In this document: positions 26,167 through 64,000 of the stretch, piece by piece
How positions within the stretch are numbered: the stretch's first letter is position 1
Layout of the letters: each line of letters opens with the position of its first letter
DNA from: Henricia sp. BOLD:AAB3569
Taxonomy: Eukaryota > Echinodermata > Asteroidea > Spinulosida > Echinasteridae
Assembly (NCBI GenBank): GCA_037783545.1
Contig: JBBELK010000004.1
Span: forward strand, 1,116,001-1,180,000
DNA: 64,000 nt
Direction: 5' to 3'
The notes under the pieces: generated by a model
What the model saw: the letters and a program-made list of their open reading frames with translations, nothing else
Database searches by the model: none
What the model was told of the DNA's origin: nothing
Made by a program: the position numbers and the translations under genes

Positions 26167-27061
26167 TGAAAAGTCAATCTTGTAAGTTGTATGGGAGAAG
26201 GTACTCGGGTTTCTCTAAGTATTATGTATATGGACGTTTGTACAAGGTGAAACATTTGTTGATTATAAAAACAAACTATCTCAAACAGATTTATCGATCT
26301 ATGTTATGTTACAGTGTGCATAGCGATAAATCAGTGAATTTCAAATGAAACGACGTCGGCTTATGTCAGTTGTGTGCACCGTTCTCCTGAATTGTCATCA
26401 ATGGTTGCTCAGGCTGGGGTGTCAGTCAAAAGACACAACTACTTGGACATCTCTTTAATATGTGCAATTATGTCAACTGTTGTGTGTGTTTTAATCATCA
26501 TGGTTTCACGGGGTTCTTACTTGTAGTACAAAATATCATCCATAGGAGTTTGCTATGGCACTTTCAATTATATTATTCTTTTGATTTTTCTTCCATAAAG
26601 TTAGATAGAATTATTCTGTCTTACCATAAACTGACATAATACACATATATCTCCCATTTATTGAACGGCGCAAAAAGTAATGGTCTTTTAGTTTCAAATT
26701 TATTTAAACGATTGCAATGTCCTTTTTTATTACAATACATTTTTATATACAGTGCAATTGAAAGAATGGGCATGAATCGGTTAATCATTTTGGATTTTGT
26801 AGGAATATAATTATAAATGTGTAAATTTACTTGTTATACAGAACATTTTTGCCACTGTACATGTGCACTGTGAATGAAATTGCCCTAAACAGTGAAATGC
26901 AAACTGTTACCTGATTTTAGATAGCCATGACTATTTTAGAACGCATGTGCTAAGGTGTAGGGATTGTTGAACATACCCTTTCCGATCATGTTGAGTATAT
27001 AAAGCATTTTCCAGACTAACCCACACTTCCCTATTGGCTTTTTTCAAAATTCTAATTCCAG

Positions 27062-27154
27062 CCATCTGCGACCGGCCGTGCGTGCATGGAACCTGTATCG
27101 GTAACAACCAATGCCAGTGTAAGCAGGGATATCGCGGCGCTACGTGCAACAGAG
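27062..27154 (+). CDS. npnt/egfl6-like: Nephronectin/EGFL6-like gene, exon 3 (EGF domain 1)
   Basis: This exon encodes residues 98-128, one complete EGF domain. Its six cysteines (100, 104, 109, 115, 117, 126) are spaced C-x3-C-x4-C-x5-C-x-C-x8-C. The sequence CVHGTCIGNNQCQCKQGY closely follows the first EGF of vertebrate nephronectin (recalled as CKHGECIGPNKCKCHPGY). It lacks the Asp-x-Asn-Glu calcium signature, as in that family. The acceptor CCAG|CC completes the Pro98 codon begun in exon 2. The donor is GTAAGC at 27155, leaving one G that starts Asp129 of the next domain. Both flanking introns are phase 1, usual for EGF modules. Confidence 0.93.
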
Positions 27155-27331
27155 GTAAGCTTCTTAGACTTCCTGGATTTAATGATTACATGTATGATCA
27201 AACTATGTGCATTCTCAATAGAGCATGTCCTCTCCTAAAGCATGGGAATGTTACGGTCCATCCTTCTATAGTGTTTCTATTTTTAACAAAAAGTGCCCTC
27301 ACTTGACACTGCACTGTCCACCCCACCACCC

Positions 27332-27529
27332 GCCACCCCAACCCCCTCCCCCCGCCACCCTAACCCCCTCCCCCCGTCACCCTAACCCCCTCCCCCCGTC
27401 ACCCTAACCCCCTCCCCCCGCCACCCTAACCCCCTCCCCCCGCCACCCTAACCCCCTCCCCCCGCCACCCTAACCCCCTCCCCCCGCCACCCTAACCCCC
27501 TCCCCCCGCCACCCTAACCCCCTCCCCCA
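27332..27529. repeat. 22-bp minisatellite, nine units, containing CCCTAACCC
   Basis: Units start at 27332, 27354, 27376, 27398, 27420, 27442, 27464, 27486 and 27508. Each reads GCCACCCTAACCCCCTCCCC followed by CC, with GTCACC in two units and CCCCAACC in the first. The complement carries GGG runs able to form G-quadruplexes. The CCCTAA core resembles the telomere hexamer, but the 22-bp period is not telomeric. Confidence 0.9.
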
Positions 27530-34860: not shown

Positions 34861-35537
34861 AAAACCTGTATCGCCTTCTTCGTTATTTTGAGTTGATATA
34901 TTTTGTATTATCGTGATAATTAAAAATCTAGTTAAAGCTAACACCGTATGACATATAAAGGGCCTTAGATGCCGAAAATGCCATAAATTTACAGGAATTT
35001 CAAGGCAAGATTTTACGGATTTCTAGAATAACAGCATAACATATCTAAAGAAGAATGTTGGTAATTTACCATACAGAAATTTGAGCTATAAATGCTTCAG
35101 AAAATCTTAAAAATCCATAGCCTTTACATGTTATGTCATTGCAAATATTACACAAGGCCTTTGAAGTACTCCGTATATCTGACATTTCGTTTTCAATTAA
35201 TTAGGGAGCACTATAGATGTAGGCCTAGGTCTATAGTGAGATTGTCCTCTTTCGATAATATCTTTCTGTCGAATTACCGAGACTGCGGTGTTTATTGTGA
35301 CATCGTCGAGGCTGTCGAGCCCATATCCACTGTCCGTTGCATGAATAGTTTCTTTCTTTTGGCCGTAATTATCTATTGGTAAATCTCTTCGATCACCACC
35401 AGCTGAAAGGGTGCCACATTATTACGGAGACAATCATTTGCAAATGCATGGGGAGTCGCGGGCAATCATGTACATTTGAACTCCTGCACTTTTCAGACCG
35501 TGTGGTCCAGGTTAAAGATCACACTGACTTACCAACC

Positions 35538-35777
35538 GGGTGCACCTCACTAAATAGAGTCCCCATAAGAAACAATGCTAAATTTCCAATATTAAACAAT
35601 CTTTTAAAAATACTTCGAACACTCACTGCGTCTCGAAGCATAAAAACGTAAGACACTCCTTGAAGTCTCATCTTTTTAATTCGGTTCAATTTTATTGGGG
35701 AAGTCCGTCACTTTAATCCACTAATTTCCGTTTGAAACAAAACCACATTTGGAAGAATGAAAATTGACAAACAATTT
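35538..35777 (+). mobile_element. Partial copy of the GGGTGCACACAAGTAAATAG element
   Basis: Starts GGGTGCACCTCACTAAATAG and follows 47406-47887 through CCCATAAGAAACAATGCTAA, TGAAGTCTCATC, CAATTTTAT and CTAATTTCC..TTGAAACAAAAC. More diverged than the copies at 47.4 and 63.7 kb, and its right end is missing. Confidence 0.6.
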
Positions 35778-36484: not shown

Positions 36485-36645
36485 GGCCAGCTCGGTGGTC
36501 GAGTGGTTTAAGACGTCTGCCTTGTTTGCAGGAGGTCGCGGGTTCGAGTCCCACCCGAGTACGCTGTGAAGTTTTACATAGCGTCTCGGGAAAGCACTAA
36601 GTATATACAGTGCCAATAATTACGTCGGGTAAGGGCAAAACAGAC
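36485..36645 (+). mobile_element. tRNA-derived SINE with long variable arm (Leu/Ser-like head)
   Basis: The head GTCGAGTGGTTTAAGACGTC gives an A box, and GGGTTCGAGTCCCACCCGAG a B box, with a 15-20 base variable arm between them as in tRNA-Leu or tRNA-Ser. The body CGTCTCGGGAAAGCACTAAG, GTGCCAAT and GTAAGGGCAAAA matches 54800-54955 and the tail at 26090. The downstream body and multiple copies argue against a functional tRNA gene. Confidence 0.65.
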
Positions 36646-41225: not shown

Positions 41226-42780
41226 AACCCGCACAGATCGGTTTTGATCGTGTGTACTTTGACATTTTCTCTAGATCTTTGATTTTAGCAGAGGGCGCCT
41301 TCGATGCAAATACGTGTACATGTCACATGGTCTACAGGTTGAGATTATTGTGATATATATCTAATGTACGAAATACGAGATACTCAAAGCTTTCCTTAAA
41401 CTACGTACGTACATCTACAACAACTAGCAAAGTATGGCATCGATGTGATACTCGATACATAAGTCTTCTGCCTCAGCGCTCGGTGTCCGAAATGCTTGAA
41501 ACAACGGCGAAAACGGTTAATGCACGTATTGGCTATGAGCACTAAGTGCCTTGCATCTTTTAGTGAAATTCCAATAAATTCAAGTGCCGATGCCATTTAA
41601 AATTCTAACAAACTCTGGTGTCGATGCAAAAAGCCACCAGAAAAAGCAAAAGATTCACCTTTAGTATATACAGGTATTCTATTATCTAATCAATGTATTC
41701 ATGCATATTTACGTAGGCCCACTCTTTCCAAACTTGGCCTAAATACGCGCATCTGAAGTGCACTGCAAACAGTAACCATGCACGATAAATGTTGGCATAA
41801 CGTCCAAACCTGTAGATCATTCAAGCCTCCAGGGAAAGTCAATGTAAATGTACCCACTTCTGCACTTTCAGCTGATCTCGAGCTCTCCTGTGTAAACTAT
41901 TCTATTTTTGAAGTAGGCCTACATGTGCGAACCATTGATAGGCTTGCTGTTTTTCTCGGACGTGGGTTTTTAAACGTCCCACCTTGTGGATACAGTGGCT
42001 TAAACTGCCAATCCAGGCGTTACTTGCAGATTTCTGAAAACCCATTTTCTTTATCCAAACCGTTTTATCAAAATAAACTTTCTGGAGATACACAGTCGGC
42101 GAAAAGGATCTTGCTAATTGCTAGGTCAGATTTGAGTGGCTGGACCGTCATAGGTCATTGACCCTATAAACACCGGGACATTCCAGACATTGGCGCTATT
42201 TTGGCGATATGACGTAGGCCTACATGTAGTTTTGTGGGGAAGAACGTATTAAGAGGACTTGACTGCTGGGAAAACACTAAATATTTCAACACATTCTACT
42301 AATACTATATCCAGTAATTTGAAGATAAAGGTGACCAGGTCTCGAAACAACTACCATTCGGTCGATTTGTGCTTTTGGCCTATGTAAACGTTCCATGGAA
42401 AACACAGTGTCGCGCAGCTCAGCATTCTGCATGGTATCACGTACGTTAATCACAACCTTAACATGCAGATCCAATTCTTGACAGATAATTAACCATTCTA
42501 CATCTTGTTGCTAGGTTTGTTTTCATTGGTCTGGGTCAACAAATTTCATTAGAGAACTGGGAATGCGTGGGGCTATGCACCTGTCAGTCAAATTTCAAAA
42601 TGGAAATTGGATTTCGGAATCCAGAACATTCGAAATGTTAAATGTCGTTCAAATAATGTCTGTTTCTATAAGGTTCGTAGAATGTTTGTGGTTGCCCAGC
42701 AGGTTCTAAGTGTCTTTTTATAAAACTCGGCAGGCTTCATCGTGAAACATGAACACAAGCCTAAACCAGCACGATTGTGT

Positions 42781-43455
42781 GGTGCTGTCTGCATGTGGGT
42801 TGGTGGGGGCGGGTGGGTGTCAGGCGACCCAACACACCACCCTCTGACTGTTTATGGTGCTGTCTGCATGTGGGTTGGTGGGGGCGGGTGGGTGTCAGGC
42901 GACCCAACACACCACCCTCTGACTGTTTATGGTGCTGTCTGCATGTGGGTTGGTGGGGGCGGGTGGGTGTCAGGCGACCCAACACACCACCCTCTGACTG
43001 TTTATGGTGCTGTCTGCATGTGGGTTGGTGGGGGCGGGTGGGTGTCAGGCGACCCAACACACCACCCTCTGACTGTTTATGGTGCTGTCTGCATGTGGGT
43101 TGGTGGGGGCGGGTGGGTGTCAGGCGACCCAACACACCACCCTCTGACTGTTTATGGTGCTGTCTGCATGTGGGTTGGTGGGGGCGGGTGGGTGTCAGGC
43201 GACCCAACACACCACCCTCTGACTGTTTATGGTGCTGTCTGCATGTGGGTTGGTGGGGGCGGGTGGGTGTCAGGCGACCCAACACACCACCCTCTGACTG
43301 TTTATGGTGCTGTCTGCATGTGGGTTGGTGGGGGCGGGTGGGTGTCAGGCGACCCAACACACCACCCTCTGACTGTTTATGGTGCTGTCTGCATGTGGGT
43401 TGGTGGGGGCGGGTGGGTGTCAGGCGACCCAACACACCACCCTCTAACTGTTTAT
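42781..43455. repeat. 75-bp minisatellite, nine nearly identical units
   Basis: Nine units of exactly 75 bp starting at 42781, each beginning GGTGCTGTCTGCATGTGGG and ending CCTCTGACTGTTTAT. The only change I see is one base in the ninth unit (CTCTAACTG). Because 75 is a multiple of three and the unit has no stop in several frames, it produces long open frames on both strands (251, 233 and 230 codons); these are artefacts. The near identity means recent expansion or strong homogenisation. Each unit has a G-rich strand with four G runs. Confidence 0.95.
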
Positions 43456-43574
43456 GTTTCATCTGCTGATGAATCGATGAATTTTTGCCATTTATAGTAA
43501 AATAAAATGTTCAGTGCTCGAAACAGTCTATTTATACCCATCCAACCCCACCATCGAATTTAAGGGAGAGAGGG

Positions 43575-45795: not shown

Positions 45796-45878
45796 TTCAA
45801 ATTTATCAAATTTACAAAATATACCACCGTGTACGATCCGTGTACATACCGTCCAATCAATTACCGTTTTAAAATAGT

Positions 45879-46225
45879 ATAAAGAAAAAGTAAAAACTAA
45901 CCGTTTACCGATTTGTAATCTTTATAAAGAAAAAGGAAAAACAAACCCTTTACCAATTACCGTTTTTCAATCTTTAAAAAGGAAAAAGGAAAAACAAATC
46001 CTTTACTAAGTACCCTTTTTTAATCCGTAAAGCCAAAAAGGAAAAACAAACCCTTTACTGTTTTACCGTTTTTAGAATCTTTATAAAGAAAAAGGATAAA
46101 CAAACCCTTTACCGTTTGCCGTTTTAGAATCCATATATAGAAAAAGGAAAAACAAACCCATTACCGTTTACCGTTTTTAAATTTGTATTAAGAAAACAGG
46201 GAAACGTTACAAGTTACGGTATTCC
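45879..46225 (-). repeat. Tandem array of about 52-bp units, left arm
   Basis: Six to seven units of the type AAAGAAAAAGGAAAAACAAA, then CCCTTTACC, then ACCGTTTTT.AATC, each variable in detail. The array is the inverted, shorter counterpart of 50185-51050. Confidence 0.8.
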
Positions 46226-46639
46226 TTTTTTAAATGTGTATCCCGAAAGAACAAATATCAAATCGCTTTCCGTTTGTTCAGTTGAAATTTGTAAATAAAA
46301 ATAGCACACTTGTATTTGGTTCATTTTATTTGACTAAGACAAATAATAGAAAATGTTATTATTTATTTTATTTTCTTTTGTAACAAAAACGTAGCGAACT
46401 AAAAACTATGACAAAATATATGTACTGAAACAAAAAAGGAAAAAGGGTAACAGAAAAAGGAAACCCTTTACCAGTTAAGCGCAACGAAATCCGAGTGCGG
46501 CCGAGTTGTCAAAAGTGTCTCGGTTGTTTCCGGAAAAGAAAACTTTTTTTGTATCGTTGAGGGCGCGCGGGCCCGCTGCATTTTGGTGCGCACTCTATAC
46601 TTAGCAAGTTCAATTTTTTCTAGAAATTTTACAACAAAG

Positions 46640-46729
46640 ATGGAGACGTTCGTGCTCTTTAGAGGTAGCAAGAGATTGTCCCTGAGAGACGATGATATGA
46701 CAACGGGCAAAATAAGCCGCATTTTTCAG
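46640..46729 (+). other. Exon-like coding block in left arm of the foldback element
   Basis: ATG at 46640 opens 30 codons (beginning METFVLFRGSKRLSLRDDD) that end at CAG followed by a donor-like GTGCGT (46730). The same block, unbroken, lies in the right arm on the other strand (49668-49757). It looks like the first exon of the element's own gene. I do not recognise the family. Alone it is too short to be certain. Confidence 0.45.
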
Positions 46730-47014
46730 GTGCGTATACAGTAAAATTTTAATCAGAGGCCGGTTAATATCGTACAAGACATGAGACATGAGTCGAGTCA
46801 TGATTGACATTTACTTAGCTTAGGCCTAAGCCTTTAGGCGGGGGAGGGGGTGGGGGCGGGGGGGGGGGGGGGGGGGGTAATCAAATAGGGCACGCCCGTA
46901 GCCCCTAGTCTGCTGAATGAAAAAAGGAATTCCATGTACCATTTTTGTAAACATTGCTTTTGCATTTATTTATTTATTTATTTTATTTTTTACAACCTAG
47001 GCCGCCTAAGACTA

Positions 47015-48233
47015 AGGCGCGTTCCCATTGGACTTCTTTTTACGCGCCCTCGCGGGAACTTTCCGCGACTCCCTGTAAACATTCCTTCCTGTAAATCTCC
47101 CGTGCGTTCCTACTACCATATATTTTACACGACGCGAGCGGAAAATTTAGCTATTTGGCTGGCCATGTGTGGTCAATTGAGGGCGTAGTTTACATAACCT
47201 TTGACCTAACAGGATGTTCGACGTGCCATGCGGGCGCGAAATTATTAATTGTGTGCATGCTGTCTGTGTACGTGCGCACGTACGTTAAAACCCTTCAGAC
47301 TGTCAGAAAAATATGGCGAGTTCTGCCGAGACAAGTTATAAGAATTCAGCGGCTACCAAAGGAAAAGCAACAAGGAAAAAAACACGTGCGTACGTACGTA
47401 CGTACGGGTGCACACAAGTAAATAGTGCTCCCATAGGAACCAATGCTAAATGCCCCATTTTCAAAAATCATTTTAAAATACTCACAACTCTCTCAGCTTC
47501 TCAGGACAACAACCAGAATACTCATTGAAGTCTCATCTTTTCAATTATGTTCAATTTTATGAGGGTAATCGTCACTTTTATTCCCTAATTTGCACTTGAA
47601 ACAAAACTATCCCTGCAACAGTGAAAATTGCTAAACAGACCAGCGTCCATTTTGGAACAAAGGCACATATACGCTACTGGGCAAAATAGGGCCACTTTTA
47701 GGAGCTACAGTGTCTAAAATGTTTGTAGTTGGAAGAAAAAAATACCCCACATCGCGGCGATAGTCATATTCTACACAAGACCACACTCGTTCAGCTCGCA
47801 ATTCTCTCTAATATAAAAGAAGAGGAGGGCATACAAAATATTCATGAGCTCGGCGCACGGATCTCTGCTATTTACTTGGGTGCACCCGTACATGGCATGT
47901 ACAGTACATAATAACGGAACAAGAATTTTCGCGCAATGTGTGGTGGGATTGCACAATGCAGGAAGTGACCTCATCCATTTGGCATTTTACACAGCGGTAG
48001 CGGTAGTTCTACAGGGCGGCGCTGTTCCCATTGGACTTTTCGAGGGCCCTGTAAAACTCCCGCGGCTGAGCGGAAAGTTTCCGCGGACTCTTTTACCCTG
48101 TAAGTTTTACATCGTGGTCGCGGTAACTTTACAGGGACGCTTGTTCTCCGTGCGTCCCCATTGGACTAAATTTTGCTACTCTCCCGCACAACCACGGGAG
48201 TTTAACCAAAAATAGTCCAATGGGAACACCACT
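47015..48233. mobile_element. 1.2 kb TIR transposon inserted in the foldback element
   Basis: The ends are AGGCGCGTTCCCATTGGACT and, read inverted, AGTGGTGTTCCCATTGGACT. TA flanks both sides (47013-47014 and 48234-48235). The uninterrupted right arm of the host reads GACTAATTC at the matching place, which is exactly the empty site. TAA is an equally possible duplication (Harbinger-like). Inside, TTCCCATTGGACTTTTCG (about 48026) and TCCCCATTGGACTAAATTT (about 48155) repeat the end motif. It carries the element at 47406-47887. Confidence 0.75.
47406..47887 (+). mobile_element. 482-bp TIR element, third level of nesting
   Basis: Starts GGGTGCACACAAGTAAATAG and ends with the complement of GGGTGCACCCAAGTAAATAG. 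GTAC lies outside both ends, a possible 4-bp duplication, although the left flank is itself a run of ACGT repeats. Other copies: 35538-35777 (partial) and 63712 to the window edge. Non-coding; the CTTGAAACAAAACTA and CAGACCAGCGTCCATTTTGG segments are conserved between copies. Confidence 0.75.
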
Positions 48234-49059
48234 TAATTCGTTATTTTAAAGTACATGCTGCCCCTTCATTACTGGGACGGCCTCGATACTTTTGGTCATG
48301 AGAAACTACAGCAAGGAAAAATGCATTCCTGGTTCCGCCCAGTACAGCGGTGGGGTCTTGACCCTTGCCGGACTGCAAACCTCCATGGCATTGCGGTCAG
48401 AATACTGGCGCATTAGTAATGAGGCAGTAGGCCTAGTTTCAAATCTGTACGTACTGCTATGGTTCAACTAAAATTACACCGTGGCAACGGCAATAAAAGT
48501 AGGCTCAGGTCTACAACAATTGTTTCCCCAAAATTAATACAGCAGGCCTATTAAAAAAAACTTTAAAAGTTTAGTATAAAGAACATGAACAAAAAATTGA
48601 TATATTTTCTACTTGTTAATTAGGGGGCCTATTATATTGATGGAAAGGAGAGTGCGAGTATACATTTTTGTTATGCTTATAATTTTTGGGGACATGCTTT
48701 TCCGGATGTAAACTTTATAAAGTAATAATTTCAAAAAAGAATTAGAAATAACCACTAATTTTCAAAATTCCCCCTCCCGAACACTCTGTACTTGTAGCCC
48801 TGACTCTTAGATTTAGAAGTGTTTAGACCATGATCCAGCTTGAAAAAAATGTAATAAATAAATAAATCACTGAAATAAATAATGAATTACTTGAGTTTTA
48901 ATTACATGTACCCAAATTAAAGCTGAATTTTTTTACAACTTAATAATGCAAAAACCTTTTTTTAATATATCACATCATCACATACTAGTACATTGTACAT
49001 GTAGTATAGGTCTATACCTGTACCTGATGACCTGTGTTTGAAAATGTTTATTTTTGTAG

Positions 49060-49310
49060 TTTTACCTGGATATCAATTGTTAGGTAATACCCAGGACTCC
49101 GTGTTTCTGTCTGATGACAGAAACACAGCCATCTTCCCGGATGAGAGTGGGAATTACTCTGTGCACCTGCTGACAGACAAAGCCCACTATGAAGTAAATG
49201 GTGACACAACTGGTCCCATGACCCAACCCCAACAACCTCCGAGTCCGGCAAGGGTCAAGACCCCACCGCTGTACTGGGCGGAACCAGGAATGCATTTTTC
49301 CTTGCTGTAG
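49060..49310 (+). other. Exon-like coding block, centre and right arm of the foldback element
   Basis: After an acceptor-like TTTATTTTTGTAG an open frame runs to a TAG at 49308-49310. It reads LPGYQLLGNTQDSVFLSDD..., then FPDESGNYSVHLLTDKAHYE, then a Pro-rich tail. The composition looks like real protein, not random DNA. Its last third lies in the inverted arm and is therefore repeated on the minus strand near 48305-48376. Joined directly to 46640-46729 the frame would not match, so an unseen exon, a different acceptor or decay must be assumed. Family unknown. Confidence 0.4.
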
Positions 49311-49667
49311 TTTCTCATGACCAAAAGTATCGAGGCCGTCCCAGTAATGAAGGGGCAGCATGTACTTTAAAATAAAGAATTAGTCTTAGGCCTGGGCGGC
49401 CCTAGGTTCTAAAAATAAAATAAATAAATAAATAAATGCAAAAGCAATGTTTACAAAAATGGTACATGGAATTCCTTTTTTCATTCAGCAGACTAGGGGC
49501 TACGGACGTGCCCTATTTGAACACCCCCCCCCCCCCCCCACCCCCGCCCCCTCCCCTGCATAAAGGCTTAGGCCTAAGCTAAGTAAATGTCAATCATGAC
49601 TCGACTCATGTCTCATGTCTTGTACGATATTAACCGGCCTCTGATTAAAATTTTACTGTATACGCAC

Positions 49668-49757
49668 CTGAAAAATGCGGCTTATTTTGCCCGTTGTCAT
49701 ATCATCGTCTCTCAGGGACAATCTCTTGCTACCTCTAAAGAGCACGAACGTCTCCAT
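49668..49757 (-). other. Exon-like coding block in right arm of the foldback element
   Basis: Minus-strand duplicate of 46640-46729: the same 30-codon frame and the same donor-like GTGCGT after CAG. Conservation in both arms shows that the inverted duplication includes the start of the element's coding region. Confidence 0.45.
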
Positions 49758-50184
49758 CTTTGTTGTAAAATTTCTAGAAAAAGTTGAACTTGCTAAGTAT
49801 AGAGTGCGCGCCAAAATGCAGCGGGCCCGCGCGCCCTCAACGATACAAAAAAAGTTTTCTTTTCCGGAAACAACCGAGACACTTTTGACAACTCGGCCGC
49901 ACTCGGATTTCGTTGCGCTTAACTGGTAAAGGGTTTCCTTTTTCCTTTTTCTGTTACCCTTTTTCCTTTTTTGTTTCAGTACAGATATTTTGTCATAGTT
50001 TTTAGTTCGCTACGTTTTTGTTACAAAAGAAAAGGAAATAGATAATAAAATTGTCTATTATTTGTCTTAGTCAAATAAAATGAACCAAATACAAGTGTAG
50101 GCCTACGTGCTCTTTTTATTTACAAATTTCAACTGAAAAAACGGAAAGCGATTTGTTCTTTGTTCTTTCGGGATACACATTTTA

Positions 50185-51050
50185 AAAAGGAATACCGTAA
50201 CTTAATACGTTTCCCCGTTTTCTTAATACAAATTTCAAAACGGTAACTGGTAAAGGTTTTGTTTTTCCTTTTTCCTTTTTAAAGATTAAAAAACGGCAAA
50301 CGGTAAAGGGTTTGTTTATCTTTTTCTTTATAAAGATTCCAAAAACGGTACAACGGTAAAGGGTTTGTTTTTCCTTTTTCTATATAACGATTCCAAAAAC
50401 GGTAAAACGATAAAGGGTTTGTTTTTCCTTTTTGCTTTTACGAATTCAAAAAAGGTACTTAGTAAAGGGTTTGTTTTTCCTTTTTGGCTTTACGGATTAA
50501 AAAAGGGTACTCAGTAAAGGATTTGTTTTTCCTTTTTGCTTTTTTAAGATTGAAAAACGGTAACTGGTAAAGGTTTTGTTTTTCCTTTTTCCTTTTTAAA
50601 GATTGAAAAACGGTAATTGGTAAAGGGTTTGTTTTTCCTTTTTCTTTATAAAGATTACAAATCGGTAAACGGTAAAGGGTTAGTTTTTCCTTTTTCTTTA
50701 TACTATTTTAAAACGGTAATTGATTGGACGGTATGTACACGGATCTAACTTGTAACGTTTCCCTGTTTTCTTAATACAAATTTCAAAACGGTAAACGGTA
50801 ATGGGTTTGTTTTTCCTTTTTCTATATGGATTCTAAAACGGCAAACGGTAAAGGGTTTGTTTTTCCTTTTTCTTTATAAAGATTCCAAAAACGGTAAAAC
50901 GGTAAAGGGTTTGTTTTTCCTTTTTTGCTTTTACGAATTCAAAAAAGGTACTTATAGTAAAGGATTTGTTTTTTCTTTTTCCTTTTTTAAGATTGAAAAA
51001 CGGTAATTGGTAAAGGGTTGTTTTTCCTTTTTCTTTATACTATTTTAAAA
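50185..51050 (+). repeat. Tandem array of about 52-bp units, right arm
   Basis: About fifteen units of the form GGTAAAGGGTTTGTTTTTCC, TTTTTCTTTATAAAGATT and CAAAAACGG. The element's end motif (GATTGGACGGTATGTACACG) occurs twice, at about 50726 and 51058, showing that the outer third of this arm was duplicated. Confidence 0.8.
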
Positions 51051-51354
51051 CGGTAATTGATTGGACGGTATGTACACGGATCGTGTACACCGTGTATATC
51101 AGTTCGTGTTCACTGCATGACTTGACAGTCCTCCAATGTGAATGTCTAGTTTCAAGGACCATGGAACCATGGAACTAGATAACAAGGAACCACATTTTTG
51201 TGTGTGTATTTATGACATCCACAAACTTAAACCTTTAAAGATAGTATACATGATTGGTAAACTGTTACAAATAGTTTTATCCCCCTGTGTGATTGAAGGT
51301 ATAGGCCTACATGATTAAAACCAACCTGAGAAAAAACCAGCTTCGTACTTCGTC

Positions 51355-51482: not shown

Positions 51483-52190
51483 CAAGCATATCCCAACAAT
51501 GTTCTATGGGCTTCAGATCCGATGACCAAGCTGGCCAGTTCATAACCTATGATGCCCTTATCCTCCAGGGCGGGTATTACACTATCCTGCATAAAATGAA
51601 CCCTTCTCTATTCAGTGCAGAGGCAAAAGGTGGTACGATTGATTGAAGGATTACATCACGATATCTCAGTCCAGTCATCTTGTACCGGTCGGTCCGACTG
51701 CCTACACAGACGCCTGCCCAAAATATCACTTAACCACCACCACCTTATGCATCAGTTTGAACCACATTACATGCTGCAAACCGTTATCTTTGGCGTCTCC
51801 ACACGCCCAAACAACCATCTTTGTTCGTACAGTGAACCGAATCTCATCTGAGAACAACACAGCTGCCCAGTCAGCGATCTGCCAGTTTTGATGTTCTCTG
51901 CTGAAATCCCCGAAAGGTCTTCTGGCTCTTGTACGTTGTTCACGGAGCCTGTTCCTTACTGTGTGGTGATGAATTCTTATCCACGCAGTGGCATGTTGAA
52001 GGTCACTTTGCAGCGACAGACCTCTGTCGGAGAGCAGAATTCACCAAATAGCGGTCTTTTCTGGATGAAGTACAGCGTTGACGGCCTTGACCTTGTCTTC
52101 TGGCATATCCCCCTGTCTCCTGATAGCATCTCCACGAATGCCCAACCACGCTTATGAACACAGCAAATTAACCCTCTGGGCAACCATCCT
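51483..52190 (-). pseudogene. Broken Tc1/mariner transposase
   Basis: Minus-strand pieces match the DDE transposase of Tc1-like elements in order. An N-terminal part contains HHHTVRNRLREQ; then come VLFSDEIRF (first catalytic Asp); GLRYRDVILQSIVPPFA; MQDS (second Asp, where MQDN is usual); and NWPAWSSDLKPIEHCWDMLG (catalytic Glu, where SPDLNPIEHLWD is usual). The pieces lie in different frames, with at least two frame changes and a probable internal deletion after the first motif, so no active enzyme can be made. Clear terminal repeats were not found. Confidence 0.8.
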
Positions 52191-52799
52191 CCAATGGCTG
52201 ACTGCTTGCTCTTGGCTACTTCCGGTTCACTTAACGTCTAGTCCCATCCACTAACACCAAAAGAAGACATAAATCGAACCAACTGCAAAAGCTTTCCCAT
52301 TTTTCTTTGGTGGAGAAAAACTGCAATGTCCAGAAACTGACTCTTATTGGCTTTTTACATAGGGTATTGACAAATCCTACACTCTAACATTTCTTTGTCT
52401 TGCTTGAATGATCTGGAACTCCACAAAACTATTGGGGCAGTGTTCAAAGGTTGAAATGTATAGCTGGTGATTTATTTGAGTAAACAAAGAGAAATTTATC
52501 AGCACAAAATACCTTGCTCCCTTAAATGTTTTAAGTAGTGTATTGTCAATGATGTATAGCGTTGTTAACAGATATCCATCTTTACCAGCAGAGCACTGAC
52601 TTGTTAGGTAACTGAGAGATGCGCCTTTTAATATAAGCTATAACGGCATTCTGTTTTGATCGCATGCAGACACCGCCTTATAATCACATATCGTGGAATG
52701 ATCATTAACCTATTTATGTCCGGTCTTTTGTCATTTTGATCTCTCCTGAATTTCTGTTTATATCATTCACATAGGCCTACATTATTTCCATTTTTCCAG

Positions 52800-52916
52800 A
52801 TGTGAATGAATGTAGCACCCGACCATGCCAGCACCGCTGTATGAACACCATGGGCAGCTACAGATGTTATTGCGAGGAGGGCTACACGCTTCGAGATGAC
52901 AAGAAAACATGCATGT
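52800..52916 (+). CDS. npnt/egfl6-like: Nephronectin/EGFL6-like gene, exon 4 (calcium-binding EGF domain 2)
   Basis: This exon encodes residues 129-167: DVNEC, then six cysteines at 133, 138, 142, 151, 153 and 166. Asp129, Asn131, Glu132, Asn144 and Tyr149 make the calcium-binding EGF signature, and C-x-N-T-x-G-S-Y is the usual Asn-hydroxylation context. [14 protein letters not shown] is almost identical to the second EGF of vertebrate nephronectin (recalled as HRCMNTYGSYKCYC). The acceptor TTTTTCCAG|AT completes Asp129. The donor GTGAGT (52917-52922) leaves one T, which with AT from exon 5 makes Tyr168. Phase 1 on both sides. Confidence 0.95.
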
Positions 52917-54799
52917 GTGAGTATGCTGTTGATTGTATGTTGACTCCATGCATTAATTCGATGACAGCTGTTATCGAAATTATATTCGAAACAATCATCT
53001 TGTTTTAAATGGGTTGCTGGCCGCGATATTTTCCCTTAAGTCCTCTCTTGCCTACTGATTGGTGCATGGCTTAGGCCCCTACATGCATATGTTTGTTCTT
53101 CAAACCGAACCATAAGAATTTTGGTGTTTCAAAGTTTCTGCTAACACTGAAAAAGATAATTGGTATATAACCACAGCAAGTATTGCACTCGGGATGTTCT
53201 GCTCGATCGTCCTATACTTCGCCACTAGACTACCAAGCATTTATGTATTTTTAAGGCCCATTACATCATTTGCAGTGACCAGAAAATCCCTACTAAGCCC
53301 GCAGTGACAAGAAAATCCCTACTAAGCCCGCAGCTCACGTGACGTTAAGGGTCAATTGCGCCTGATCGTATACTATGACTTTACAGAATGGGGATACCTT
53401 TCAGCTTAATTACATTCCACCCTGAAATATCTAGACTTTTAGTACCTTAAAATTATTTCTGCCAAACCTCCATATACCGGTTTTTGTTATAATATTTTAG
53501 CTAAGTGGCTAAACAAGATGCATATTTTGTGAAAATATCAGACTATAGCCCACAGGTTGGGGGATGAAAATTGTGTCCCAGAAAGCCCGAAGCATCTTTT
53601 TGTCAGAAAAATTGCGGTAAAACGAGACAGTTTGAAGATACACCTGTGCGAAAAACTGCGAATCATCCTAAAACTATCGAGTATATAGGCTATATCGGGT
53701 ATAATACAACAAAATTCTGCTCACAACAAGGGCAATTTTAGGTCCCAATCCTTTGTTCTTTATTGTTTTCATTCCTGATAATTCATTGGTCAGGCTATAG
53801 GTTTCTGTTACAAATGGAATAAGGCAATCTGCAAAGTTCCCAGGACCTATTACTAACAAGGTTAAATTGCAATAAAAAACAAATTTTGTAATAAAAACAA
53901 AATTTTGGCGGCACTTTTTGCTCCTTAATTGTATTTGTTTGCTCCATAATTTCCCACGGGTGGATTGTTTTGATTGATATCTCATTCGAAGGTTAAATAA
54001 CTTCGACAACCTGGGAAAACTATCCATACCTTGACCAAACTTAATTTACTGGGTGAAATCGGTCCTGAGGCCTGAGCAGACAATCCTACCTTTAATAACG
54101 TGCAGTAGCTGGTCACTTTATACAGCAGTTGATTTTGTCGGTCGCCTGAGATTTATTCCATTTGCTTATAAACACATAACCACTAATGACTTATGACAAC
54201 TCTTACGCCGCTCTTTCTAATCTGATAAAGATTACGAAAACATTTATCACTGAGCATGACTGCTGCAATGTGGATACTAGGTAATTTGTCAAAACAAAAA
54301 AATGAGAAATGACGGCCCTCTGGGGACAAAGTCATGAGCTTAAAGGGGAAATGGGCTTCCTCGTATAGCTTCCTTCTTTTCATGTACGATTCACATCCGA
54401 TTTCATCCTAAAATACATTCTAATGAAATATCAATAGGTTTATCGATTTGTCAAAGTCGTTAAGTTTGAGTCTCCACCAAAAAAAAGCGCAATTTATGAA
54501 ACTCTGAAAAATTGAACCTTTTTGTTCCACAACTTCTCATTTTTATAATTTTTTTTAATTTTTTTAAAGCTAACATTTTTGGCAAACCCATGTTTTGGCG
54601 ACCTTGACCAGAAACATGGCTGCAACGTTGTAATCGGGTTAACAAATCAACAGCCGTAGATGCCGATGGCTAATGCTGATCATTGGTTGAATATGTGATG
54701 GCGTCATTAACGTGATTCTGGTTATATCACCAAAGCATGGCCCTGTTCAGCCTGAGTATATAGACAAAATCGTACACCTTTTGACATCAAAACAGGCTT

Positions 54800-54955
54800 T
54801 TGGGATGGTGGTCGAGTGGTTAAGATGTCTGGTAATAGTGTGCAGGAGGTCGTGGGTTCGAGTCCCACCCGAGCACGTTGTGGTTGTTGTATCGGAGTGT
54901 CTCGGGGAAGCACAGAGTACATATTGCTGATCAAGTAGGGCAAAAACAAATCGAG
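54800..54955 (+). mobile_element. tRNA-derived SINE with long variable arm
   Basis: Head GGTCGAGTGGTTAAGATGTC and B box GGGTTCGAGTCCCACCCGAG; body GTGTCTCGGGGAAGCACAGA, ATTGCTGATCAAGTAGGG and CAAAAAC. The same family as 36485-36645, in the same orientation. Confidence 0.65.
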
Positions 54956-59640: not shown

Positions 59641-60052
59641 TATGGACATACATATAAAGTTGCCAGTGTGTGCAGTCTCTTGGCGGTTCAGCCGGTGCCG
59701 CGCCTAGCGTGTGCACCAAGATCGTGACGGTCGAATTAGTATTTCACCCCAAGACGTCGATATAATTTAAAAACAGATATACAGTAGGTTGAATCTGTAT
59801 CTGAGCTCAATCGTACCAGGTAACATTTGTGTCAAAAACACAAGTTCGCCGCGTTTTACGAGTTTGAGGCGGCCGAGAGCTGCACTCCCCTGCGAAATCT
59901 CATTCGTTTATGCACGATCAAACTTGGCGTTCCTGTACGGTGTACTTTACATAATTCCGTCCCGCCATGCACTGCGCGCAGGGAACCACAAGAGCACGTA
60001 TTATTATTACGTAAGACTTTTAACCAGCGATTTTGTTTTTCTACTACAACAG

Positions 60053-60172
60053 ATGACAGGCGTTGCGAGTCCATGCGTTGTTCCTACGGGTGTGAAGAAA
60101 GAGGGCGCTATAACGTGATGTGCATCTGCCCTGAAGGTTTACGAGTCGCCAGCAATGGCTACAGCTGTCTTG
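60053..60172 (+). CDS. npnt/egfl6-like: Nephronectin/EGFL6-like gene, exon 5 (EGF domain 3)
   Basis: This exon encodes residues 168-207 plus the first base of the next codon. Six cysteines (172, 177, 181, 191, 193, 206) make a third EGF domain without the calcium signature. CESMRCSYGCEERGR and CICPEGLRVASNGYSC parallel the third EGF of vertebrate nephronectin (recalled as CSMANCQYGCDVVKG and CQCPSPGLQLAPDGRTC). The acceptor CTACAACAG|AT completes Tyr168. The donor is GTGAGT at 60173. The trailing G is in the right phase to begin the Asp of a DVDEC-type calcium-binding domain, the next module expected in the family. Confidence 0.92.
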
Positions 60173-60919
60173 GTGAGTAGTTTGATCGTGCTCTAGACCA
60201 TAACAAAATACAAGAGGGGATTTTCCCTGTATTTCGCCTGCCAGGCTGCTTAGAGCACCAGCTGTCTTGATTGGCAACAATCTGCTCTTATAAAAACCCA
60301 TTAATTATGTCAGTTGTTAGGATCGGCCTTGTCCTGTTTTCATTGTAAGTTTGACGTCAAAACATAAGTCGACTACCGTGGATTATGAGCTTATACGTCA
60401 TCCTGCCACGCACTCTTGCGGTCGAGATGAAGCAAAAGCAACACAATGCTGTTTCTGTCAAAACGAGGAGACACGGGGAAGTTGGAGGAAATTGATAGCT
60501 TCTTGTATGTTCCTCATGTTGTACTCTCTGCACTGCACCCATTCTAATTTTAGATCATGTTACTCTGCACGATTTTACGCGGGAATGAGCCTGCATGTAT
60601 TGCTAAACTGTTACAGTACCGGTATACAGTTTCTTGTTACAATAAAGACCTACTAGTAGTACCATGTAAAACATTTGAACACGTTCATTAGAAAATGTTG
60701 GCTTAGATACGTGGATCACAATGTTTACCGTTCTTAAACACTTTTTTTACCATAATATATGTTAGACCATGGAGCTCCATGGTTAGACATCGTTCCTCCA
60801 TGGTTTAGACCATACACTAATCTTGCATAAGGTTGCTTAATTCCCCAGAATGTCGTCAGCATAGCAACGTTTCTTATAAAAGCATAGCAAACGGAAGTTT
60901 ATTTTCCAATAGTATCCCT

Positions 60920-61290: not shown

Positions 61291-63711
61291 CATGCAGGGA
61301 ACAATTTTTGACAAATAGTTTCACTCTGTCATCAAACAAAGATGCTAATGTTACGGTAATTTACTGGCCCACCTTATAGGCCTACTCTATTTTATGTCAC
61401 ATATCTTTTACTCTTCGACTCTCGGCCCTTATCAGCTGCGGCACTTGTGAAAGAAAATGATTACAAGTTCTCGATCTGGGGCCTATGGTGTTTCAGCTTT
61501 GGGCCACTTGCCGCAAGTGTCTTGCATTATTGCAACATTACATGTTGTGACCACCTGCGCGCGAGACCACATCGCACCAGCCCTGCTATGCTGTGAGGCA
61601 CATTTTCAATTGCCATTTAGCTCATACGATCGAACATTTCTGTTATGTCTGGGGCAAGTCGGGGTTAACCAGCGGTTAATAGCCTTTTGGTGCCCCTCTT
61701 CCAGGGGGCCACAGACACCCAGAAATTGCCAACTGAAACTGAAGTCCATTTGAGGTCGATTAGGAGCTACAAGTTAAACCAGACATATTGTCTGTTTGCA
61801 TTAAATGTCAAGAACATTTTATGCAAGTCATTTCAGTGTTGATGATTAGAACGGCTTATTTCTGCATCTCTGGCTCTCAGTAGTTTCTTTTCTGCATTTC
61901 ATGCACGTATTGCCTACGCTCCTTTCGCAGTGGTTTGCGCGCCCGGTTTCGTCCGCTCCAACCACTGCTCAACTTGGCAATAATTCCTACGAAGCGCTGC
62001 ATGACGTCACCCGACACCAAGGCTGGATAACACTTGCCATGATTGGCCAGATTCTGTCACCTGACATCCTCGACCTGCTTTAAGTCTTCTTGCCAATTTG
62101 TTTCTTTAACACATCTATATAGACTGCCGAGGTGAATACGTCATCTTTTGCATTGGCACTTTACTTTGCATTTGACGAGGCCCGTGCTGCTGAGTAACCT
62201 CATGATGATTATACATAGTAACACTTGTCTTCCATCGTATACTTTGGAACAGCTGTTGACGACTGTTACAAACAAGTGACACAAGCTAACGACAGGAAGC
62301 GCAAGTGCATGTCATTGATTGCGAAAGGAAATGTCCAACACAATATTGTATAAAGACACTGGTCACTTATGGAGCTGGTCAAGGCGAACCACAGATAGTG
62401 CAGTGGGTGTTAGCAGTTACCACGCAAGATGACATGTCTGATGTCAGTTTTTTGTGAAGCAGCAATCCATTGTAATTTGTGGAACGTGCATATACGTGTG
62501 TTTATGGCGACCATATCACCAACGTTTTTATAGGAACTTACAAATCAGATTGAGGTTTCTTCTGGCTAATAATACTACCAAAAATTTATCTAATATAACA
62601 TTGTTTGTACAATGATCACAAAGCGTTTAACAAGTGGTAAAAGGGTGAAGTAATAAATCATCCAATATAGGCACACAGTTCATGAAAATACATATAAAGA
62701 TAGTAAAGTATCTAAATACAATGTATATATTAAGTCTTCAGCATGCATTTAAACACGCTTAACCCTTTCATGACTGATACTGATAGGACCCTGAAGTCCC
62801 AGCCTTATAGCCTTAAAAAGTTCAGTGTAAAAGGCAAGGGTTCAGTAACCAAACCCACAAGTGGATCTCAATCTCCCAGAAAGCACATTCCACAAAATTT
62901 GTTCCGTGCGAATCTCCAGTTTAACGAAGTTGACGAAATTAGCCCCGCCAGCAGAATCTTTGCCTGGTGTTACTTCGAGGTCTACAGGGGCGCGCCCTCT
63001 CCTCCCGGAATAAAGAGGCGTCAGAAACCTAATCCAAATGCTGTCACGGACGGGGTTTGAATGTGGGAGCCCATATATCATGCAGTATCTTTCTTCTTCT
63101 TTTTCTTTTTCTTCTTTTTTAAGTAGACAAGGGTTACGACATCACTTCAGTTCTCGTTGTCTGCGCAGTGTTAAGCTCGCGTACAACTGTTTGGGTGATT
63201 CACTGATTGAGTGATTGCTGTCAGTCACCAACCTTTCAAAGGGATTTCTATATCTATGGTGTGGCGCCGTAAAATAATTAAGAGAAGGTTCTGAAAAGAG
63301 TATTTCCGGATGTTCAGACACCTTACTCTGTCCAAGAACTGGTGAAAGCAGGTCTTTCGTGTGTAGTTTTATGAGCTCGTTAAGTTTGTATAGCTCAATC
63401 ATAATAAGTCACGGCTCATCTGCACCCGCAATCGAGGACTAATTAATTACAGCTAGTGATTTCCAGGCGCTAGGCTGACGTAATAATAGAGAATCTGGGT
63501 TTAATTTGATAAGACGTCGCATAGATTAGGATTAATTCATGAAATGAATTAGGGACGATCAGGCAGGAGCGGATGCACTGCAAACGTGTTTAAAACGCCT
63601 GTTATTTGTTATGCTGACGTCATATATTTGGCCCACAAACGAGGTCTGGCATCTTTGATATCGAGGTTATAAGGGCATCCCATAGGGTTTATTGGCGCCG
63701 CATTGCGTTAT

Positions 63712-64000
63712 GGGTGCAACCAAGTAAATAGGGCTCCCATAGGAACAAATGCTAAATGCCCCATTTTCAAAAATCATTTAAAAATACTCACAACTCTTTT
63801 AGCTTCTCAGGACAACAATCAAAATACTCATTGAAGTCTCATCTTTTCAATTTTATTCCCTAATTTCCACTTGAAACAAAACTACCCCTGCAACAGTGAA
63901 AATCGCTAAACAGACCAGCGTCCATTTTGGAACAAAGGCACATACGCTACTGGGCAAAATAGGGCCACTTTTAGGAGCTACATTGTCCAAAATGTTTATA
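63712..64000 (+). mobile_element. Copy of the GGGTGCACACAAGTAAATAG element, cut by the window edge
   Basis: Begins GGGTGCAACCAAGTAAATAG and follows 47406-47887 very closely (CTCCCATAGGAACAAATGCT, CCAGCGTCCATTTTGGAACA, TACTGGGCAAAATAGGGCCA), with one deletion of about 30 bases. Closer to the 47.4 kb copy than either is to the 35.5 kb one, suggesting recent activity of this family. Confidence 0.75.

Follow-up and report, generated by a model that had tools for sequence, protein, structure and literature searches.

The closest analogues of the element described here are already known. Galileo, a Drosophila transposon of the P superfamily, has long terminal inverted repeats (TIRs) that bear tandem repeats in some subfamilies, have grown by copying adjoining internal DNA, and are longest in non-autonomous copies. 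In Galileo copies with recruited internal sequence, TIR1 is proposed to have been copied into the TIR2 position past the end of the repeat to give a TIR1-F1-F1-TIR2 arrangement, and the tandem units are discussed as secondary transposase-binding sites (PMC3573991). Tetris is divided into a flanking domain, an outer tandem-repeat domain, an inner domain and a middle domain, and the paper describing it names sea urchin among foldback hosts (PMC4079207). The terminal repeats of Tm1 are also composite, with several domains (PMC3169594). The element that we compare with these occupies positions 45835-51082 (5248 bp) of a 64-kb stretch, hereafter the window, of contig JBBELK010000004.1 from the echinoderm Henricia sp. 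BOLD:AAB3569. In all likelihood it is a genuine transposon of the foldback type and, on what has been seen of it, non-autonomous; it resembles Tetris and Tm1 in its domain structure and, above all, the 'two recombinant TIR' copies of Galileo.

An earlier note made from the same DNA proposed a foldback element at 45819-51099. We agree with the identification, because the two ends share a common terminus, a 6-bp duplication flanks them, and the arms follow the order described for foldback transposons. The limits need a small correction: bounded by the common terminus, the element is one unit that begins and ends slightly further in. Both ends read 5'-GATCCGTGTACATACCGTCC, and the terminal sequence of the element is GATCCGTGTACATACC. 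The 20-bp terminus has three mismatch-free copies in the window, at 45835 (+), 50745 (-) and 51082 (-), a count matched in 0 of 100 shuffles even with up to 3 mismatches. Directly outside both element ends lies GTGTAC, an exact 6-bp direct repeat; random flank pairs from the window had 6 bp in common in 0.033% of 200,000 draws. The letters outside GATCC are GTGTAC on the left, GTACAC on the right and AAGTTA at the internal copy, with no position agreeing across all three. The limits are as follows.

45829-45834, plus strand: left copy of the target-site duplication, GTGTAC (direct repeat)
45835-45854, plus strand: left terminus, GATCCGTGTACATACCGTCC (terminus search)
50726-50745, minus strand: internal terminus copy, at the outer end of right array A (terminus search)
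51063-51082, minus strand: right terminus, at the outer end of right array B (terminus search)
51083-51088, plus strand: right copy of the target-site duplication, GTGTAC (direct repeat; 0.033% of random flank draws)

In a blastn self-comparison the inverted arms align over 1189 columns at 90%. A second inverted pair of 141 nt at 99% (48234-48374 / 49242-49382) extends the left arm past a nested insert and, once added, brings the arms to about 1.3 kb on each side, in keeping with the length of more than 1.3 kb claimed earlier. The foldback junction falls at 48374/48375 and 49241/49242. From the outside in, each arm runs through the terminus, a tandem array of about 52 bp, an AT-rich block, a CpG-rich leader, a 90-bp coding-like exon and intron-like DNA. 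The 90-bp block, a poly-G/poly-C tract and a TTTA-type simple repeat are mirrored in both arms, and Tandem Repeats Finder gave array periods of 52, 53 and 50 (scores 329, 534 and 289). The arrays, the homopolymer tract and the simple repeat had thus been described correctly.

45835-48374, plus strand: left arm, interrupted by the nested insert at 47015-48233 (self-comparison)
45900-46204, plus strand: left tandem array (L), period 52, 5.8 copies (Tandem Repeats Finder)
46217-46455, plus strand: AT-rich block adjoining the left array on its inner side, with higher divergence between the arms (11/239; arm alignment)
46831-46882, plus strand: poly-G tract with its edges; mirrored poly-C near 49520-49560 (repeat search, arm alignment)
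49242-51082, minus strand: right arm, with a third terminal copy at its outside (self-comparison)
50237-50699, minus strand: right tandem array A, period 53, 8.8 copies (Tandem Repeats Finder)
50746-51082, minus strand: right array B with its terminus, a partial extra terminal copy; period 50, 5.3 copies at 50758-51039 (Tandem Repeats Finder, alignment)

The arms carry differences of two classes. In the outer arm (46180-46455), 15/276 positions differ. Further in, the leader differs at 2/184 positions and exon 1 at 0/90; intron-like DNA has 0/101 and 1/107, the segment 46991-47014 has 2/24 and the innermost part 1/139. The inner total is 6/645 (0.9%), and inclusion of the poly-G tract (6/48) makes this 12/693 (1.7%). 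These counts exclude the nested insert and five gaps; the outer arm has gaps of 10 and 7 bp, the inner arm gaps of 4, 1 and 7 bp. Outer and inner arms differ with a Fisher p of 9e-5 without poly-G and 0.004 with it, for a split at 46455 that was picked after the alignment had been seen. A change-point scan, whose break was not so picked, placed it at 46370 (14/191 vs 7/730), a result reached by 0/2000 shuffles without poly-G and 12/2000 with it. Neighbouring differences are not independent: in a count without 46991-47014 (inner 4/622), merging them raised the Fisher p from 1.7e-5 to 7e-4. The 90-bp block, which had been singled out as conserved, is indeed present in both arms; its conservation is not special, given 0/90 there vs 0/101 and 1/139 in its neighbours.

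The arrays fall into the outer class, in which the arms are 4-5% apart. With gap columns left out, identity is 357/373 (95.7%) for L-A, 323/334 (96.7%) for L-B and 312/328 (95.1%) for A-B, so that L and A differ by 4.3%. These alignments used cheap gap extension, since the extra monomers of A misalign under global alignment; the global values for L-A (84.7%) and A-B (80.2%) were dropped on that account, L-B being 96.7% there also. The three terminal copies therefore differ from one another by 3-5%, against about 1% for the inner arms, and we read the two classes as an old terminal-repeat pair and a later extension inward. The extra right-hand array is real, as had been noted. Its proposed origin by internal duplication finds no support as a recent event, and array A is rejected as a recent source of B, A-B identity being no higher than L-A or L-B. 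The inner limit of B coincides exactly with GATCC of terminus A (50740-50750), where a finished end meets the inner portion of a different terminal copy, much as though a further terminal segment had been attached to an already finished end.

The arms are not an assembly palindrome, because the left one contains a TA insert and the right one the corresponding empty site, reading ...GACTAATTC; the differences between the arms speak against it as well.

47015-48233, no strand assigned: nested insert, 1219 bp, with 20-bp imperfect terminal inverted repeats AGGCGCGTTCCCATTGGACT / AGTGGTGTTCCCATTGGACT (TA duplications at 47013-47014 and 48234-48235)

Part of this insert, 47403-47727, recurs in the window at 63709-64000 and 35537-35773, with 85% and 75% identity. 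The GTTCCCATTGGAC of its ends occurs inside the insert only (47021, 48024 and 48215), and the window edge truncates the copy at 63709.

The inner arms and the centre have the look of the beginning of a gene.

46456-46639, plus strand: CpG-rich leader before exon 1, putatively promoter-like (CpG ratio, arm alignment)
46640-46729, plus strand: coding-like exon 1 of 30 codons, with donor-like CAG/GTGCGT after it (read from sequence)
48375-49241, plus strand: single-copy centre, 867 bp, CpG observed/expected 0.41 (self-comparison, composition)
49095-49241, plus strand: coding-like exon 2 (DSVFLSDDRNTAIFPDESGNYSVHLLTDKAHYEVNGD...), ending at the foldback junction and able to join exon 1 in phase via CCCAG/GAC (splice sites by eye)
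49668-49757, minus strand: identical exon 1 of the right arm (arm alignment)

Exon 1 starts in a favourable context (AAGATGG, left arm), and the donor-like CAG/GTGCGT stands in both arms. The open frame from 49095 keeps the exon 1 phase past the junction until a stop after 49307, in antisense arm DNA. The splice sites of both exons were judged by eye: the CCCAG/GAC acceptor at 49095 has a poor pyrimidine tract, and a better-looking acceptor at about 49059 would put exon 1 out of this frame. The low CpG observed/expected of the centre is equalled in 1.9% of window segments; stretches of array and leader have 1.4-1.6, and the window, which contains no N, has 0.87. With the two exons, singly or joined, Pfam returned no family at E<=1; there was none at E<=0.01 for the exon-2 frame and none at E<=0.1 for ten other element frames. 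A search of the PDB with the exon protein gave two weak matches that we take as chance, one of 0.013 to an MHC class I protein and one of 0.76 to a SYK domain. Pattern searches for relatives of the exon protein gave 5 matches in viral contigs and 47 in prokaryote genomes, none of them confirmed, an absence of little weight for an animal element; the DNA patterns of the element, including the terminal pattern, had 0 matches in viral contigs, an unfair test for such an element.

We consider it probable that this is a non-autonomous foldback-type DNA transposon, of the cut-and-paste kind, built from the 5' end of a longer element. In the longer parent, terminus, array and AT-rich block would have made up terminal repeats about 0.6 kb long, and a gene would have started just inside the left repeat. 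The left end may have been copied into the place of the right end, either when an excision was repaired or by conversion, with the copied tract continuing through the leader and exon 1 and some way into the intron. The remainder of the parent gene would have been lost, so that the second arm now starts within exon 2. In terms of the Galileo scheme TIR1-F1-F1-TIR2, F1 would here correspond to the leader, exon 1 and intron. The 52-bp units are predicted to be additional transposase-binding sites, and the element would be mobilised by a transposase from another source, with cuts at GATCC and insertion at a 6-bp stagger. The position of right array B outside the complete terminus A is not explained by a Galileo-type copying scheme.

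Several observations count against this proposal. Only one copy was seen: blastn with the low-complexity filter found the arms nowhere else in the 64-kb window, and only relatives of the nested insert. The 6-bp duplication lies in a target rich in palindromes, GTGTAC is present within the element's own end as well, and AC next to GATCC is common to both flanks; ends of CGATCC with a duplication of 4 bp are therefore a weaker alternative. No transposase was recognised in the 11 element frames scanned, out of 13 of at least 75 codons; the other two, at 50290-50514 and 50749-51003, lie inside the arrays. Three-base periodicity is modest in the putative exons, 10.1%, 9.5% and 9.7% of window segments equalling exon 1, exon 2 and the joined exons, compared with 7.3%, 3.0% and 1.4% as high as three frames in the window that resemble epidermal growth factor (EGF) domains. 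A similar picture of divergence could arise if the inner arms had undergone conversion, or if AT-rich repeat DNA changed faster.

By structure the element belongs with foldback transposons: it has long inverted arms with tandem repeats and a target-site duplication, the latter in one copy and with a 4-bp reading possible. Its placement among described families is looser, FB and Galileo being structural analogues rather than families to which it can be assigned. Galileo makes 7-bp duplications and has a P-type transposase, whereas here the duplication is 6 bp and no such transposase was recognised in the scanned frames, though a parent copy could carry it; the tandem unit also differs in length, and a coding-like exon lies within the copied tract. 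The duplications of Tetris and Tm1 are mostly 8-10 bp long; the tandem unit measures about 220 bp in Tetris and about 14 bp in Tm1. Sea urchin TU elements have 15-bp units and 8-bp duplications; the present element shares their foldback structure, and its host may be related to theirs, but its units are about 52 bp and its duplication 6 bp. A Mutator-type foldback like Tm1 fits poorly, with a duplication of 6 rather than 8-10 bp and no MULE transposase recognised in the scanned frames. Mutator as such could fit, because the range given for IS256/MuDR duplications is wider, 4-10 bp (PMC10045372). Dada elements, with 6-7 bp duplications, insert into small RNA genes and are without terminal inverted repeats (PMC3706591); here the inverted repeats are long, and the only two Rfam matches in the window, both tRNA, are away from the insertion site.

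Who owned the gene-like segment is a separate matter. The arms could hold the captured 5' end of a host gene rather than the parent transposon's own gene, which we regard as possible though doubtful. A CpG-poor centre (0.41, vs 1.4-1.6 in array and leader) would be expected of a methylated gene body, and the exons match no transposase or other Pfam family. Against capture, the leader follows directly after terminal-repeat sequence, as it would in the element's own gene, and the lone N-terminal fragment is too short for classification. That the whole structure is a chance local inverted duplication of non-mobile DNA, an outcome that the earlier note had itself raised, or two separate insertions face to face, is very improbable. 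In its favour, one copy was seen, in a search confined to the window; the common termini, the flanking duplication and the third terminus copy inside the right arm make a local duplication unlikely, and the inner edges of the arms showed no terminus. That the element derives from a Polinton/Maverick by deletion is hardly credible. Polintons have AG...CT ends, and the element ends in GATCC; no Polinton protein, including polymerase B and integrase domains, was recognised in the frames scanned. Such elements can have long terminal repeats. Their duplications are given as 6 bp (PMC10045372), the length found here.

A different question is whether the element acts on its relatives. Maize Mu killer, a Mutator derivative with reported silencing, consists of two TIRA copies and a partial inverted duplication of mudrA; its antisense transcripts are attributed to an internal promoter, read-through from flanking genes is said to be disproved, and long hairpins are treated as a minor possibility (PMC3440606). 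In the present element, likewise, an inverted partial gene is enclosed by two copies of the same element end. By analogy, its own leader might drive transcription of an RNA that is either antisense or folds into a double strand, and the parent gene would thereby be silenced in trans. The anatomy matches, with leader and exon 1 pointing inward on both sides and inner arms differing by 0.9%. Anatomy, however, is what this idea rests on, and gene-bearing foldback arms would look alike with or without silencing; moreover, the nested insert lengthens the unpaired part of the left arm, and the read-through hairpin model is disputed for Mu killer itself (PMC3440606). We judge such a silencing role unlikely.

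The surrounding window contains further features. EGF-like frames lie on the plus strand at 26995-27303, 52775-53005 and 59824-60177, of which only 52775-53005 passes the Pfam curated cut-offs, the others falling below. They suggest exons of perhaps one or more host genes, in which case the element would lie in an intron of an animal gene. The palindrome TAGGCCTA, common in echinoderm and hemichordate DNA, occurs 24 times in the window, where base composition would predict about 0.9 copies. Immediately to the right of the element, 51729-52237 (-) looks by eye like a fragment of a Tc1-like transposase; Pfam gave no family there at E<=0.01. At 42780-43456 a 75-bp GC-rich unit stands in nine tandem copies with 99% matches, three frames being open across the array, and a C-rich minisatellite at 27321-27528 has a 22-bp unit, 9.5 copies and 97% matches. 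The two tRNA matches, at 36489-36562 and 54807-54870, are above the Rfam gathering score, the latter weakly.

The two divergence classes within one pair of arms would directly trace how terminal repeats of a transposon grow inward by internal copying, as has been proposed for Galileo. The copied tract seems to hold a leader and first coding exon, which would make the element a ready test of whether hairpin silencers arise in this way in animals. If the silencing idea were true, the element would be an animal counterpart of maize Mu killer, a natural hairpin silencer of its own transposon family.

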